Source: a virus | Virus record (IMG/VR): IMGVR_UViG_3300010371_000079 | Coordinates: 1 to 34,885 of that record | Reading direction: 5' to 3' (one strand) | DNA length: 34,885 nucleotides | Shown: one piece after another, positions 3,676-29,907 of the stretch | Numbering within the stretch: position 1 is the first letter of the stretch | How the letters are laid out: each line of letters starts with the position of its first letter | Position numbers and translations under genes: made by a program | Notes under the pieces: model-generated | Databases searched by the model: none | What the model was told of the DNA's origin: nothing | The model's input: only the letters and a program-made list of their open reading frames with translations

Positions 3676-4086
3676 ATGCCGAAGTTTTCCCAGGAGTCAT
3701 TTAGCAAGCTTTCAACCTGCCATGCTGATTTGCAAGCGCTGTTTTATGAGGTCATCAAGAACTTTGATTGCATGATACTTGAGGGATATAGGAACCAGGC
3801 AGACCAAGACCTGGCTTTCAAAGAAGGGCGCAGCAAGCTAACTTGGCCTAATGGCAAGCACAACAGACAGCCTTCAATGGCAGTTGATGTAACGCCATAT
3901 CCTGTAGATTTCAGCAACATTAAGCGATTGTACTGGTTCGCGGGCTATGTTATGGGAATTGCACAAAAGCTTAAAGATGAAGGCAAAATGACCCATTCAG
4001 TCAGGCATGGTGGTGATTGGTCGGGAGACAAAGAAAACCTTACCGAGAGCTTTTGTGATATGCAACATTTTGAACTTATCGAGTAG
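3676..4086 (+). CDS. Endolysin, M15/VanY-like peptidase
   Basis: A 136-aa protein of the L-alanyl-D-glutamate / D-Ala-D-Ala peptidase family (peptidase M15). Zinc-site residues are visible as H62 in GKHNR, D71 in MAVDVTP and H131 in QHFELIE; D114-W115 lies in the usual DW position and YRN (38-40) is the conserved arginine strand. It cuts peptide stems of peptidoglycan in the periplasm. There is no signal peptide, so it needs the holin encoded 24 bp downstream. AAGGA lies upstream of the ATG. Size fits phage M15 lysins. Confidence 0.85.
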   Translation: MPKFSQESFSKLSTCHADLQALFYEVIKNFDCMILEGYRNQADQDLAFKEGRSKLTWPNGKHNRQPSMAVDVTPYPVDFSNIKRLYWFAGYVMGIAQKLKDEGKMTHSVRHGGDWSGDKENLTESFCDMQHFELIE

Positions 4087-5677: not shown

Positions 5678-5861
5678 ATCGGAGTTTGGTTTACCAGGTG
5701 AGCGCAAATACCCGATGGAAAATCGTGCTCATGCTGCTAACGCGAAAAGTAGAGCATCCCAAATGGTTAAAAAAGGCAAGCTTTCGGAATCGTCTAAAGA
5801 TAAGATAGATGCAAAAGCCAATAGGATATTGGGCAATCATTACCCGAGTAGAAAGAAATAA
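5637..5861 (+). CDS. Unknown basic protein (74 aa)
   Basis: ATG 5637 has AAAGGA seven bases upstream. The product is Lys/Arg/Ser-rich, with RKYPMENRAHAANAKSRASQ and a C-terminal KIDAKANRILG. Very similar short basic proteins occur next to terminase genes in other phages, function unknown. Confidence 0.65.
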   Translation: MATLTTKARKKIPKSEFGLPGERKYPMENRAHAANAKSRASQMVKKGKLSESSKDKIDAKANRILGNHYPSRKK

Positions 5862-6053: not shown

Positions 6054-6248
6054 ATGAATTGCACAGCATGCAATTACCCATCATCAAGAGTCATTGAAAC
6101 GCGGCAAGATGGCTTCTCTGAGCATATTAGACGCAGACGCGAATGCATTAAATGTGGTGCGCGTTACACAACAATTGAACATGTTCGCGATACTGTAAAC
6201 AAAGCACCATACAAGACCCCGCCTCCACGCAAGGTATTAGAGAAATGA
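6054..6248 (+). CDS. NrdR-type zinc ribbon protein without ATP-cone
   Basis: A 64-aa protein that begins MNCTACNYPSSRVIETRQ and continues IRRRRECIKCGARYTT. The cysteines C3, C6, C31 and C34 and the RRRREC stretch match the zinc ribbon of the NrdR repressor, which normally binds NrdR boxes through this domain. The regulatory ATP-cone domain is absent, so it cannot sense nucleotides as NrdR does. It starts directly after the upstream TAG and overlaps TerL by four bases. A DNA-binding or packaging accessory role is inference. Confidence 0.75.
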   Translation: MNCTACNYPSSRVIETRQDGFSEHIRRRRECIKCGARYTTIEHVRDTVNKAPYKTPPPRKVLEK

Positions 6249-8961: not shown

Positions 8962-11166
8962 ATGGAAATCATTGCAGAGCAAATGGAAATTGATGATCTT
9001 GAATCCATCAATGAAGAGCTTCTTGCAGAGTTAGCAGCGGCAGGAATTGACGAGGCTGAAGTTTTAAAGAAAGCCCGTGAAGACATGGTCTTATGGGATG
9101 GATACTTCGGAGAAAACACAGTCCGCGGCAAGGACGACATGAACTTTGTCATACGTGATCAGTGGTCAGCAGTTGAGCGCTCAGAGTTCAGCCGAACATT
9201 CAAACCTGCAATGACCTTTAACAAGCTTTACGACACCACCAAGAAGGTAGTGGGAGAGCAACGCAAGAACAAGCCTGATTTGATGGTGCGCTCATTGACT
9301 GGCAAAGCCACTCAGGCACAAATCGACCTACGCGCTGATTTGGTACGCACAATTAGCTATCAATCCCAGAACGACCTCGTATACCAAACAGCATTTAAAC
9401 AAGCATTAATGATGGGCTATGGGGCTTTTGAGATAGTGCTCGATTACGAGTCCCCGAAGTCTTTTAACCAAGTCATACGCTATGAGCTTATCCCTGACGT
9501 TATACGCACCTCATTTGACCCATGCGCTTTAAAGCCACACAAAGGCGATGGTAATTTCTGCGCCAGGCAATACCTCTATACCAAAGAAGAGTTCTATGCG
9601 ACATACCCTCATGTATTAAACCCAGTTTCTTATTCCGATCCCCGTAGCCTTTTAGACTTCCAATGGGAAACACGAGACACCATCATTGTTTGTAAGTACT
9701 CACGCAAAGAATGGTTCCCCGTAAAGCTGTTTTTGCTATCCGATGGAAGAAGCGTTACAGAAGAAGAATGGGAGGACATGCAGCCAGAAATCAAGATGAA
9801 CGAAGAACTGGCCGCATCAAGTGCAGTAGTGGGCGACATAATACGCAAAGACATCCCCCGCATTGTCGGGGAAAGAATGAGCAAGGACTATAAGATACGA
9901 CAATACGTGCTCACACAAAACCAAATTATAAAATTTACAGAATGGCCATCTAAGTTCTTGCCAATGATATTCGTAGATGGTGACTCTAACTTTATCAATG
10001 GCCAGCAGTATACGCGCTCATTCATCCATGAGGCAAAAGATGCACAAAAGTTTATAAACTATGTAGGCAGCGAGATTGCCGCTGAAATCAAGAACAGAAG
10101 GCGCGAGCAGTGGATAGTAACGCCAGACAACATCAAGGGCTTTGAGCAGATGTGGCGCAATCCTGAACTGCAAATCGGGGCACTCGTATCAAACCCAGAC
10201 CCAAAAACTGGCATGATGCCCCAAAAGCAAGCCCCATGGGAGCTATCACAGACCCTCTTGCAGCAATATCAACGAGGTTCACAGGACATCAGAGAAATAT
10301 TAGGCTTTAGTGAGAACGAGGCGCTACAAGGGCATGATATGTCTGGGAAGGCGCGTCGCGAGAGAAAGCTTGAGGGCTCCATGTCATGTTATGTATGGTT
10401 TGACAACCTAAACCAGGCCATAGAGCAATCAGGGCGTGTAGTCCTCGATTTGCTTCCCGTAATAGCAGGACAAGAAGAGCGACATATGATTGTATCAAAG
10501 AAGGACGGGCGTACAGAGCCTATTACTTTGAACAAGATTGTAGGGCAAACCGAAAATGGGGATCCTATACGCGAAAACCAGCTTGATAATGAAGACTATG
10601 ATGTTGAGATTGATACAGGCCCATCATTCGCCGTTCAAAAAGACATAGCCCTTGAATACTTCCAGACAACAGTTGCGGCAAATCCCCAGGTATTTAACCT
10701 GATTGCCGACATATGGGCAGAGAACCTAGACATTCAACAGCGCGAACAGGTCAAGGGAAGGCTTAAAAACCTTGTTCCACCTGAGATAATAGCACAGGAA
10801 GAGGGCAAGCAGTTGCCGCCTAAGCCGCCGAGCCCAGAAGAACAGATGATGCAAGGACAGCAACAGCTTATGCAAATGGAAGTACAAGAAAAGATGGCTG
10901 AAATCAAGAACAAAATGGAAAAGCTTGAGCTTGATAAGCAAAAAATGAAGCTTGAAGAGGCTGACTTAATGCTTAAAGCCCAGAAGCTACAGCTGGATAG
11001 CCAAATGGATGTCTACAACCATCAGGCAGACATTCAGAAGACGAAGCTTGTTCATGGGTTAGACCGTCACAAGCACGAAACCGGGTTTGCAACCGATCTC
11101 GCTAAGATACTTGCAGACCTTCATAAGCATTCCAGCCCACAACACAAAGAGACAAAGAAAGATTAA
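8962..11166 (+). CDS. P22-like portal protein
   Basis: A 734-aa protein, close to the size of P22 gp1 (725 aa). The N-terminal region (GYFGENTVRGKDDMNFV, then QWSAVERSEFSRTFKPAMTFNKL) and the middle (YQSQNDLVYQTAFKQALMMG) match the P22 portal family. The last 120 residues are Gln/Lys/Met-rich helices (QQQLMQMEVQEKMAEIKNKM), the equivalent of the P22 barrel and C-terminal coiled coil. Twelve copies form the head vertex through which TerL packages DNA. The ribosome site is weak (GGGGA at a distance). Confidence 0.9.
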   Translation: MEIIAEQMEIDDLESINEELLAELAAAGIDEAEVLKKAREDMVLWDGYFGENTVRGKDDMNFVIRDQWSAVERSEFSRTFKPAMTFNKLYDTTKKVVGEQRKNKPDLMVRSLTGKATQAQIDLRADLVRTISYQSQNDLVYQTAFKQALMMGYGAFEIVLDYESPKSFNQVIRYELIPDVIRTSFDPCALKPHKGDGNFCARQYLYTKEEFYATYPHVLNPVSYSDPRSLLDFQWETRDTIIVCKYSRKEWFPVKLFLLSDGRSVTEEEWEDMQPEIKMNEELAASSAVVGDIIRKDIPRIVGERMSKDYKIRQYVLTQNQIIKFTEWPSKFLPMIFVDGDSNFINGQQYTRSFIHEAKDAQKFINYVGSEIAAEIKNRRREQWIVTPDNIKGFEQMWRNPELQIGALVSNPDPKTGMMPQKQAPWELSQTLLQQYQRGSQDIREILGFSENEALQGHDMSGKARRERKLEGSMSCYVWFDNLNQAIEQSGRVVLDLLPVIAGQEERHMIVSKKDGRTEPITLNKIVGQTENGDPIRENQLDNEDYDVEIDTGPSFAVQKDIALEYFQTTVAANPQVFNLIADIWAENLDIQQREQVKGRLKNLVPPEIIAQEEGKQLPPKPPSPEEQMMQGQQQLMQMEVQEKMAEIKNKMEKLELDKQKMKLEEADLMLKAQKLQLDSQMDVYNHQADIQKTKLVHGLDRHKHETGFATDLAKILADLHKHSSPQHKETKKD

Positions 11167-27106: not shown

Positions 27107-27271
27107 CTATTTGTTTTCTTTAAGCAAATTGCATTTTTTATTGCAGTCATCACAAAGATAAGATGGCTTTTGTCCATGCGACATTATGTTCCATGCGGCA
27201 TGGTCTTTTGGGGAAAGCTTTAAATTGCCACATATTATCCAAACTCGTGATTTACAGCAGTCGCTTAGCAT
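27107..27271 (-). CDS. Small zinc-binding protein (54 aa)
   Basis: The ATG lies inside the end of the recombinase gene (20-bp overlap). The product has SDCCKSRVWIICG near the start and LCDDCNKKCN near the end, a likely zinc-ribbon pair. Similar short Cys-rich proteins are common in phage early regions. Function unknown. Confidence 0.55.
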   Translation of the reverse strand: MLSDCCKSRVWIICGNLKLSPKDHAAWNIMSHGQKPSYLCDDCNKKCNLLKENK

Positions 27272-27863
27272 CTTCGTCCTTATTAAATTCCCATTCTGGT
27301 TTTTTAGCATAACGGCCAAGTATTTTATAGATTGTCATGCGAGAAACTTTAAGGGCACTTGCTGTCTTTCTGACGCTTTCCCCGTCCTCGATCATTGCCT
27401 TGGCCTTGGACACTAAAGCATCTGTGACCTTTGAAGGTCGTCCTCCTGTGCGACCAGCTTTCTTTGCAGCATCTATCCCTTCGCGTTGACGGGCTTTTAT
27501 CATTGTCCGTTCAAACTCTGCAAAAGACCCCATCATATTAAGCATAAGGGTAGAAAACGCATCCTTTTTTCCTGTAAAGGAAAGATTTTCTTTGATAAAC
27601 CGAACCTCGACTCCTTTTGTGATCAAAGAATCTACTATTTCCTGTAGGTCACGCAAATTTCTTGCTAGTCTGTCAATGCTTTCAACGACTAGAACATCCC
27701 CTTGTCTAACATAAGCCATGCAATCGGCAAGTCCTTGTCTATCTTTGGATGATCCGCTCATTTTGTCGACAAACTCCTTGTCTAGTTTAATGTCCGCTAA
27801 TTGCCTTGCTGTGTTTTGGGTATTTGTTGATACTCGGATATAACCTACAACTTGACTATTCAT
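27252..27863 (-). CDS. Serine recombinase (resolvase/invertase family)
   Basis: A 203-aa protein of normal size for the family. The catalytic domain shows YIRVST with R10 and nucleophile S12, the SIDRLARNLRDLQ motif (62-74), and FAEFERTMIKARQREGI. The C-terminal part has GRTGGRPSK and a helix-turn-helix (SVRKTASALKVSRMTIYKIL). It forms a 5'-phosphoserine link and cuts and rejoins DNA at short sites. No flanking inverted repeats were seen, so dimer resolution or plasmid-like maintenance is as likely as fibre switching. It overlaps the upstream gene by eight bases. Confidence 0.9.
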   Translation of the reverse strand: MNSQVVGYIRVSTNTQNTARQLADIKLDKEFVDKMSGSSKDRQGLADCMAYVRQGDVLVVESIDRLARNLRDLQEIVDSLITKGVEVRFIKENLSFTGKKDAFSTLMLNMMGSFAEFERTMIKARQREGIDAAKKAGRTGGRPSKVTDALVSKAKAMIEDGESVRKTASALKVSRMTIYKILGRYAKKPEWEFNKDEDAKRLL

Positions 27864-28598: not shown

Positions 28599-28841
28599 TC
28601 AAAACCAATGAAAGCCATGGGCCATGACAGCAGCCAAGCCACAAATAATAGTCACTAGAAACCTAAAGTCATATTTCATTTCCTTGCGTACGTCCTTAAT
28701 TTCTTCCTTGACCTCAAGTATGTTTTTCTCAATTCTGTTTAAGGTATCATTAACAAATATGATTGACTGCTCTAGGCACGCAACCTTGGTCTCTATATGC
28801 AATGGATATTCTGAAACACTATCTTCTGCTTTTTTCTTCAA
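28599..28841 (-). CDS. XhlA-like coiled-coil membrane protein (80 aa)
   Basis: TTG 28841 is preferred over upstream ATG 28952 because AGGGAG lies six bases before it. Residues 14-58 are a heptad-like helix (ETKVACLEQSIIFVNDTLNR, then IEKNILEVKEEIKDVRKEM), followed by a single membrane segment (FLVTIICGLAAVMAHGFHWF). This is the plan of XhlA-type proteins, some of which aid lysis. It lies far from the endolysin, so a role at the membrane in early infection is equally possible. Confidence 0.65.
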   Translation of the reverse strand: MKKKAEDSVSEYPLHIETKVACLEQSIIFVNDTLNRIEKNILEVKEEIKDVRKEMKYDFRFLVTIICGLAAVMAHGFHWF

Positions 28842-28956
28842 GTTTGACTCCCTTAATAAAGTTGACAATAGGAAAGAATTGCACTTCCTCGTTAACCACC
28901 GATACCAAAGACGACTAGAATGTTTCATCGTCAATACATGGGCATCACTCATACCC

Positions 28957-29103
28957 CCATAGACCCTCTATCAGCTAACCAAGATTCTATGGCCTCTTGT
29001 TCGCGTCACTGTCCGCGATGCTATTGTCATAATTGGTTGACAACCCGACAGTACTGCCCTGTCTAGCCCACTCCCGCCTGGCATCACGTGGGCATTACCA
29101 GGC
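28957..29103 (-). ncRNA. Dense RNA structure with two interlocked stem pairs (candidate ncRNA)
   Basis: GCCCAC (29066) pairs with GTGGGC (29088) and GCCTGG (29076) with CCAGGC (29098), in a-b-a'-b' order. CCATAGA (28957)/TCTATGG (28986) and CAAGA (28980)/TCTTG (28995) repeat that order. Between them are CGCG/CGCG (29002, 29014), the perfect palindrome GGTTGACAACC (29035) and GACAG/CTGTC (29047, 29059). The DNA is richer in GC than its surroundings. Strand is assumed from the promoter at 29266. Short frames cross it but look unlike protein. Confidence 0.45.
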
Positions 29104-29245
29104 ACTCTTCAGGATACGTTTCGCTCAACGCCGCGATTGTCATAATAAAAATAGTGACCGGAAGGATTGAACTTTCATCAATCAGATGGAGATATAACGT
29201 TCTATCTTTATCCACGGCATGGCTTAATGCTGCATCAGTTTTCAT
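29084..29245 (-). CDS. Possible 53-aa protein directly behind a promoter
   Basis: ATG 29245 lies about 14 bases from the predicted start of transcription, with only AAGAAG as ribosome site. The first 45 residues look plausible (MKTDAALSHAVDKDRTLYLH, then a hydrophobic SILPVTIFIMTIAAL). Its end runs into the interlocked stems. It could be a real short protein, or part of the RNA transcript with an open frame. Confidence 0.35.
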   Translation of the reverse strand: MKTDAALSHAVDKDRTLYLHLIDESSILPVTIFIMTIAALSETYPEECLVMPT

Positions 29246-29265
29246 GCTTCTTCACGGTTAAAATG

Positions 29266-29293
29266 AGTATACCACATTATTTGACATAGTCAA
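29266..29293 (-). promoter_or_regulatory. Sigma70 promoter inside the leftward operon
   Basis: -35 TTGACT (29288-29293), 16-bp spacer, -10 TATACT (29266-29271). The -10 context AATGTGGTATACT resembles the ATGGTAT box of the other leftward promoters. Confidence 0.65.
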
Positions 29294-29834: not shown

Positions 29835-29907
29835 TATTACAAGTCAGATTTGAACTGACGACCAACCCACGGTCGTGGTTTGCTCTACCCGTCTGAGCTA
29901 CTGCAAT
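29835..29907 (-). tRNA. tRNA-like gene with abnormal anticodon loop
   Basis: A full 73-nt cloverleaf can be drawn: 7-bp acceptor stem (two G-U), T8, D-stem GCTC/GAGC with GG in the loop, 4-nt variable region ending in C48, and a perfect T-stem GTCAG/CTGAC with loop TTCAAAT. The anticodon arm is AACCA-CGACCGT-GGGTT: base 33 is G instead of the near-universal U, and 31-39 is A/G. By position the triplet would be ACC (glycine). No CCA is encoded. It may be a decayed tRNA or a tRNA mimic. Confidence 0.6.

Follow-up and report, generated by a model that had tools for sequence, protein, structure and literature searches.

Tandem tRNA-like RNAs with variable, pseudoknot-bearing inserts predicted in uncultivated tailed phages

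Two pairs of interlocked stems lie close together in the leftward operon of the virus record IMGVR_UViG_3300010371_000079, of which positions 1-34,885 (34,885 nt) were analyzed and are referred to here as the window. The question raised by this locus is whether these stems form an RNA of their own or are parts of something larger. Both pairs are present as the first-pass annotation had described them. On the minus strand, the first pair reads GCCTGG-taat-GCCCAC-gtgatg-CCAGGC-ggga-GTGGGC, i.e., two perfect 6-bp stems that interlock as a-b-a'-b' and are separated by linkers of 4, 6 and 4 nt, and the second pair consists of interlocked stems of 7 and 5 bp. The direct repeat ATTGTCATAAT was found at 29023 and 29136 and nowhere else. 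The CCGCG that had been said to precede each of its copies directly adjoins the second copy, while at the first copy an ATGCT-type spacing lies in between (CCGCGATGCT). The region is richer in GC than its flanks (0.53 at 28950-29099 vs. about 0.30-0.38), and a promoter-like site stands where a dedicated promoter had been proposed (Table 1). Two interlocked perfect 6-bp stems within 38 nt are, however, matched 4 times in the window, compared to a mean of 2.1 in shuffled windows, though only 0.9% of the shuffles of the local 451 nt gave the interlocked 6/6-bp layout. Such layouts can be expected in a sequence of 35 kb and would be no proof of an RNA by themselves, so that the case for a structured RNA rests on homologs.

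A protein search with the gene that follows the flagged region identified the contig IMGVR_UViG_3300044837_000119 (L003/L004; other loci are numbered likewise), which is similar along much of the window and whose corresponding protein is 64% identical to that of the window. Placed side by side, the window and L003 have in common acceptor strands, a D-arm-like hairpin, a variable arm and a T-arm, and L003 carries a longer array behind the same promoter (TTGACA...GTATACT). Judged from these sequences, positions 29258-28863 (minus strand) of the window are predicted to encode three tRNA-like RNAs in a tandem array behind a promoter (Table 1), and the flagged pseudoknot site is predicted to belong to a row of small, tRNA-shaped RNAs that have no anticodon. 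In successive units, the repeated ATTATGACAAT makes up the 5' strand of the acceptor. The earlier impression of a duplicated unit was thus right in kind, but the units number three, and the flagged structures are real but lie within an element that is longer than had been given. Both pseudoknots are inserts within tRNA-like frames, placed where a tRNA carries its anticodon and variable arms.

Table 1. Features identified or predicted in the window at and around the array.
Feature	Positions	Strand	Basis or details
tRNA-Gly (ACC)	29835..29907	minus	upstream on the same strand; ARAGORN; Rfam tRNA, 41.8 bits
Promoter-like site	29266..29293	minus	TTGACT-16-TATACT, TG before the second hexamer; expected start near 29259
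tRNA-like unit 1	29157..29258	minus	alignment with L003 5446-5551
Unit 1, acceptor	29252-29258/29157-29163	minus	
Unit 1, D-arm	29232-29247	minus	
Unit 1, hairpin	29217-29230	minus	loop TAAGCC
Unit 1, variable arm	29186-29215	minus	
Unit 1, T-arm	29165-29183	minus	
tRNA-like unit 2	29039..29141	minus	sequence anatomy
Unit 2, acceptor	29134-29141/29039-29045	minus	
Unit 2, D-arm	~29117-29131	minus	GCGTT-GAGCGA-AACGT
Unit 2, H-type pseudoknot of insert	29066..29103	minus	GCCTGG/CCAGGC x GCCCAC/GTGGGC; ends 2 nt before T-arm
Unit 2, T-arm	29047-29063	minus	loop GGCAGTA
tRNA-like unit 3	28863..29028	minus	typical family member; structural scan and R1
Unit 3, acceptor	29021-29028/28864-28871	minus	
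Unit 3, D-arm	29001-29018	minus	loop GACAGTGA
Unit 3, interlocked stems of insert	28957..28999	minus	CAAGA/TCTTG x CCATAGA/TCTATGG
Unit 3, further possible stem of insert	28972-28979/28891-28898	minus	ends beside T-arm
Unit 3, T-arm	28872-28888	minus	loop TGCAATT
Unit 3, discriminator A	28863	minus	
Post-array gene	28602..28841	minus	coiled coil and membrane segment
Serine recombinase	27255-27863	minus	invertase/resolvase type; closes the leftward operon

Unit 1, which aligns with its L003 counterpart over the full length, is a separate subtype found only in the window phage and L003. In the window copy, 28 of the 30 scorable pairs form, and in five pairs both bases have changed, compared to 0-1 when the partner is slid. 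Homologs that keep an amino-acid sequence and lose the base pairing had been named in advance as evidence against an RNA; the opposite was found, as the orthologous stretch of L003 keeps the base pairing and is interrupted by stops in each of its three frames. This bears on the idea that the DNA encodes a small protein, i.e., a 53-aa ORF (29245-29084, minus strand) that begins right after the promoter with an ATG preceded by a purine-rich stretch. Given the broken frames in L003 and a protein search that gave no relative of this ORF, we regard a small protein gene as scarcely credible.

The D-stem type (GCGTT/AACGC) and the acceptor (GACAATCG) of unit 2 recur in other family members, and T-loops resembling its GGCAGTA are found in L003 (unit at 5817), L055 and L126. 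With this T-loop and a short D-loop, unit 2 scores below the reach of R1, a covariance model built from 18 units, which matched unit 3 at 38.4 bits (E 2e-8). Unit 3 is overlapped by a 117-aa ORF called from 28952, whose start is probably placed too early because its L003 homolog matches only from residue 23. No Pfam family was found for the post-array gene. In L003, CCA is encoded after units 1 and 3. L003 unit 3 (5702-5804) has a His-like anticodon arm (CCCGC-CTGTGAA-GCGGG), an acceptor of GACGGGG/CCCTGTC and a long, odd D region, and reaches only 19.3 bits with Rfam tRNA.

Relatives were first drawn from viral contigs by patterns of the unit 3 D-arm, and the conservation of this arm is therefore partly built in by the search. 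An earlier structural scan, in which D-arm, acceptor and T-stem pairing were required and the T-loop sequence was left free, yielded at least 92 distinct units after obvious chance matches had been taken out by hand, and a strand-symmetric scan that required a loose T-loop yielded at least 119 distinct units in at least 113 loci of viral metagenome contigs. Their consensus order is an 8-bp acceptor, C plus one base, the D-arm, the insert, the T-arm and the acceptor 3' strand. The acceptor has 7-8 bp (8 bp in most; 7 bp plus A, and CCA in some), the D-arm a 5-bp stem and the loop GAC[A/G]GTGA, the T-arm a 5-bp stem and a 7-nt loop, and the insert 29-309 nt (final base A in 90/92), while the shortest units are 82 nt long. 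T at -1, G1-C72 and A73 are common at the unit borders. TTA[TC] precedes 27 of 88 units vs. 0.8% of random positions, an encoded CCA is suitably placed in 8 of the 88, and the spacers between units are AU-rich. More than a dozen contigs contain two or more units, and tRNA genes neighbor units in several contigs. In the contigs checked, the units are accompanied by tailed-phage genes of different lineages: the portals of the window, L096 and L158 are P22-like, while L144 has a terminase and a portal of another type. By sequence comparison, the family is spread widely among uncultivated tailed phages.

The acceptor pairing of the family covaries strongly. In the core alignment of 63 units, 95.7% of the cells are paired, compared to 71% after shuffling and at most 43% after sliding, and 301 cells are changed on both sides vs. 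70. All eight acceptor pairs of these 63 cores change on both sides, and sliding the partner abolishes the signal. Further analyses revealed joint changes of D-loop position 18 and T-loop position 55, which in the non-redundant set are A-G in 60 units, G-U in 23, A-U in 3 and G-G in 0 (Fisher p 5e-18, uncorrected for kinship). L024 and L045, which have homologous inserts, differ at 18 and 55 together, and so do two units within one L003 array. Positions 19 and 56 are G-C in 60 of 63 units and G-U in 3. Since 18 and 55 change together, either A/G or G/U, they point to a tRNA elbow, and its contacts 18-55 and 19-56 are present, partly modified, along with the acceptor, D-arm and T-arm of a canonical tRNA. 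When only the T-arm and the 3' acceptor strand of a single acceptor type were used as a pattern, 45 loci were obtained, 40 of which have a matching acceptor 5' strand and then a D-arm upstream, 29 with GACNGTGA exactly and the remainder with near variants of GACNGTGA or new D-stems such as GCGTT/AACGC. R1, whose 18 units include none of the newly fetched loci, matched 30 of 30 such loci at E < 5e-4, with scores that derive in part from the motif used for fetching. Taken from the comparison of these sequences, a tRNA-like structure of the family is almost certain.

Constant ends, variable middles, tandem copies and module exchange are also what might be expected from a DNA element, i.e., recombination or replication hairpins like integron attC sites with cassettes in between. 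In the strand-symmetric scan, however, G-U pairs outnumber A-C pairs on the array strand (64 vs. 24), which is unexpected for a DNA hairpin, differs from the strand symmetry of an attC-like site and argues for an RNA of that strand. The 18/55 rule connects the loops of two hairpins, as the elbow of a tRNA does, and a promoter lies upstream in both the window phage and L003. A DNA element is thus considered highly improbable, and we retain the reading of the units as tRNA-like RNAs.

The proposal that the structured RNA had not been described before also held: as the first-pass annotation had suggested, the units were searched against Rfam, and no family reached its gathering score at the units of the loci tested, the pairing is kept in L003 by compensatory changes, and more than 110 relatives covary. 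Permissive Rfam searches brought up nothing besides ordinary tRNAs and weak matches that stayed under the cut-off. A consensus BLAST found no unit in 50,697 phages or in plasmids. Four near matches from cultured phages and a plasmid were checked and are regarded as chance matches; three lie inside annotated genes, and one is intergenic and has no T-arm. R1 found no unit in 398 Pseudomonadota genomes, where its sole match is an ordinary tRNA-Leu, and two pattern scans that covered a minority of the acceptor types (ending TAGC or near) found none in 84,980 genomes. Three genome-contig matches (L034-L036) were rejected as coding-like repeats that contain no unit, as was L146, an extra match to the unit 1 pattern that looks like coding sequence and in which the structure is absent. 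No description of the family was found in the literature searched, the coverage of which was incomplete, and the sequence family appears to be new.

The tRNA-like frame itself could suggest real or decayed tRNA genes, such as odd, intron-bearing or tRNA-Sec-like suppressors. L024 reaches 30.4 bits with Rfam tRNA-Sec, L024 and L045 share the loop TTTCAAC, which could read UGA, and the His-like arm of L003 unit 3 would also fit. Across the family, however, anticodon arms in the inserts are at chance level (2 found vs. 2.3 expected in shuffles), so that the canonical arm with a 7-nt loop is not a feature of the units. ARAGORN called none of them, and at gathering score the Rfam tRNA family matched ordinary tRNA genes in 13 loci and none of the units. 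Most members have A18/G55, and decay is ruled out because the covariation is strong. tRNA genes are therefore a very unlikely explanation.

What varies among the tRNA-like units is the insert, or head. A stem next to the T-arm that is crossed by another stem is enriched among the inserts (25.5 vs. 21.6, sd of mean 0.9), and this crossing layout is the a-b-a'-b' order noticed first in the window. Individually, 12 of 88 inserts have a significant pseudoknot (p 0.05 or less), and the folding energies of the inserts are weakly below those of shuffles. L031 and L032, which are 92.0% identical over 3014 bp and have the acceptor and T-loop in common, possess inserts no more alike than shuffled sequence, with switch points at the 3' strand of the D-arm and the 5' strand of the T-arm; in each insert, stems that cross next to the T-arm can still form. 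L054/L093 and L067/L099 likewise combine near-identical cores with inserts that are unrelated. In L041/L143 the insert is 99% identical and the flanks 84-88%, and in L013, L066, L115 and L117 the first 38 nt of the head are common (95-100%) on four different acceptors. As read from these sequences, heads are exchanged as whole modules between nearly identical phages, and the combination of such exchange with intervening conservation agrees with selection on the head.

These observations also bear on the possibility that the fold serves as processing punctuation only, by which a polycistronic RNA is cut while the insert drifts without function. The conserved acceptor, D and T parts, the varying inserts and the AU-rich spacers would agree with it. 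Conservation of inserts over whole modules, as between the more divergent flanks of L041/L143, and of the 38-nt stretch on four different acceptors would not, and drift would give graded divergence rather than the clean replacement seen in L031/L032. We consider mere punctuation improbable and favor a functional head.

Comparison of the inserts with their own contigs gave short matches in L052 and otherwise none besides L088, in which the insert at 3976 has a long exact antisense match near record offset 6864 on the opposite strand. The L132 insert at 10316 contains an apparent smaller tRNA-like fold (GGCAACG...GCGAG-TTCGATT-CTCGC-A-CGTTGCC).

Alternatively, each unit might be a cis-acting leader that regulates the next gene, like a riboswitch or a tRNA-mimic operator. 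In the window and L006, a ribosome-binding site follows 15-30 nt after the end of the unit and in some cases lies within a small hairpin. A same-strand ORF follows within 90 nt of 59 of the 88 units (67%), however, compared to 57% at random positions, and this absence of a preference for a pre-gene position speaks against leader function. The genes downstream of units differ, and tandem arrays and whole-head swaps would be odd for a leader. We therefore regard cis-acting leaders as unlikely. The small hairpin (CCTC-TATT-GAGG or similar) directly follows the last unit in L006 (4569-4590), L008 and the window (28862-28848), and in all three it overlaps the ribosome-binding site of the next gene.

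The preferred explanation is that the units are excised, tRNA-like RNAs that act in trans through a functional head, for which no target is named; from sequence we judge this to be reasonably probable. One promoter would transcribe the tandem units, host RNase P would cut their 5' ends from the transcript, and RNase Z or E together with the CCA-adding enzyme would handle the 3' ends, so that stable RNAs of about 85-360 nt may be released. Such excision by tRNA-processing enzymes is likewise favored, if slightly less firmly. The elbow and acceptor would then provide a frame for docking and protection, and the head may be the part acting in trans, where it would most likely bind or decoy a factor of the host or of a rival phage. 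A role of the head as a trans-acting part in conflict would account for its exchange in the way of an arms-race module. That heads act in conflict with hosts or rivals is suggested tentatively by the swap pattern, and equally speculative is the wider notion of a modular phage RNA weapon or shield, in which arrays would express one constant tRNA-like frame with pseudoknotted heads, every head would have its own target in a host or rival, and swaps between frames would bring in new heads.

If this explanation is true, an abundant, uncatalogued RNA family would be added to the uncultivated phages, the tRNA elbow would be seen to carry structured RNA domains that vary, and a covariance signature would be at hand for searching transcriptomes and phage collections. 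The head swaps between nearly identical phages also make the arms-race idea directly testable.

Other small elements occur in the same arrays. One, found in L010, L016, L054, L068, L119 and L141 (e.g., L119 4967-5015), has the sequence CCGAC[AG]ATACT...GG[GA]AAAATAGG, is closed by a short covarying stem (GGCC/GGCC, GTCC/GGAC or ATCC/GGAT) and is spaced by TTTAT. Another, GAGATCGCCGG...ATAGATCG...GGATGTAGG, is found in L068 (11277) and L119 (5289), and its ends covary (GTCTCC/GGAGAC and GGTTGCC/GGCAGCC). The L030 array also contains, upstream of its unit at 6142 (minus strand), two more hairpin elements that are closed by acceptors, GACAATAG...CTATTGTC and GATAGTAA...TTACTATC, and that precede a tRNA-Asn.

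Several known systems resemble the family in part. The tmRNA (SsrA) has a tRNA-like domain and a large pseudoknotted insert between its D and T parts, and the family too has an insert between these parts. Unlike tmRNA, the family has a D-arm with a 5-bp stem and units that stand in tandem and are as short as 82 nt. The G3-U70 pair of tmRNA is absent, as acceptor pair 3 is Watson-Crick in 87 of 88 units and U-G in one. ARAGORN found no tmRNA, and the inserts, down to 29 nt, do not show a tmRNA tag frame. Like tRNA-Sec and class II tRNAs, most members have a stack of 8 + 5 bp from acceptor and T-stem, and L024 and L045 have a long extra arm; the family as a whole differs in its D-loop and in having no anticodon arm, and the best match to tRNA-Sec (RF01852), that of L024 noted above, is below the gathering score of 47 bits. 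In type III toxin-antitoxin systems, the ToxI RNAs are tandem, pseudoknotted and processed from an array, but the units described here are closed by a tRNA-like acceptor and T-arm. GOLLD and ROOL are pseudoknotted phage or prophage RNAs of unknown function that often lie near tRNA islands (PMC12286853); they are far larger than the units and folded otherwise, and neither gave an Rfam match at the units.

The stable RNAs C and D of phage T4, of 139 and 119 nt, lie at the end of a tRNA gene cluster and have been called RNAs of yet unknown functions (PMC9697503). The T-arm of RNA C is canonical, and R1 weakly matches the 3' part of this RNA (17.7 bits, E 0.011) over the T-arm and acceptor only; the matched part has a paired 8-bp acceptor (ACGGAACG/CGTTTCGT). 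RNA C differs from the family in having no family D-arm, and RNA D is not matched by R1. In RNA C (L145 1109-1202, NC_000866), the 3' end CGTTTCGT can pair with the internal ACGGAACG to give a tRNA-like 3' domain that differs from the minimum-energy fold. In kind, the family lies near the tRNA-like domain of tmRNA and T4 RNAs C and D, and it may offer a way into the old question of what these two T4 RNAs do.
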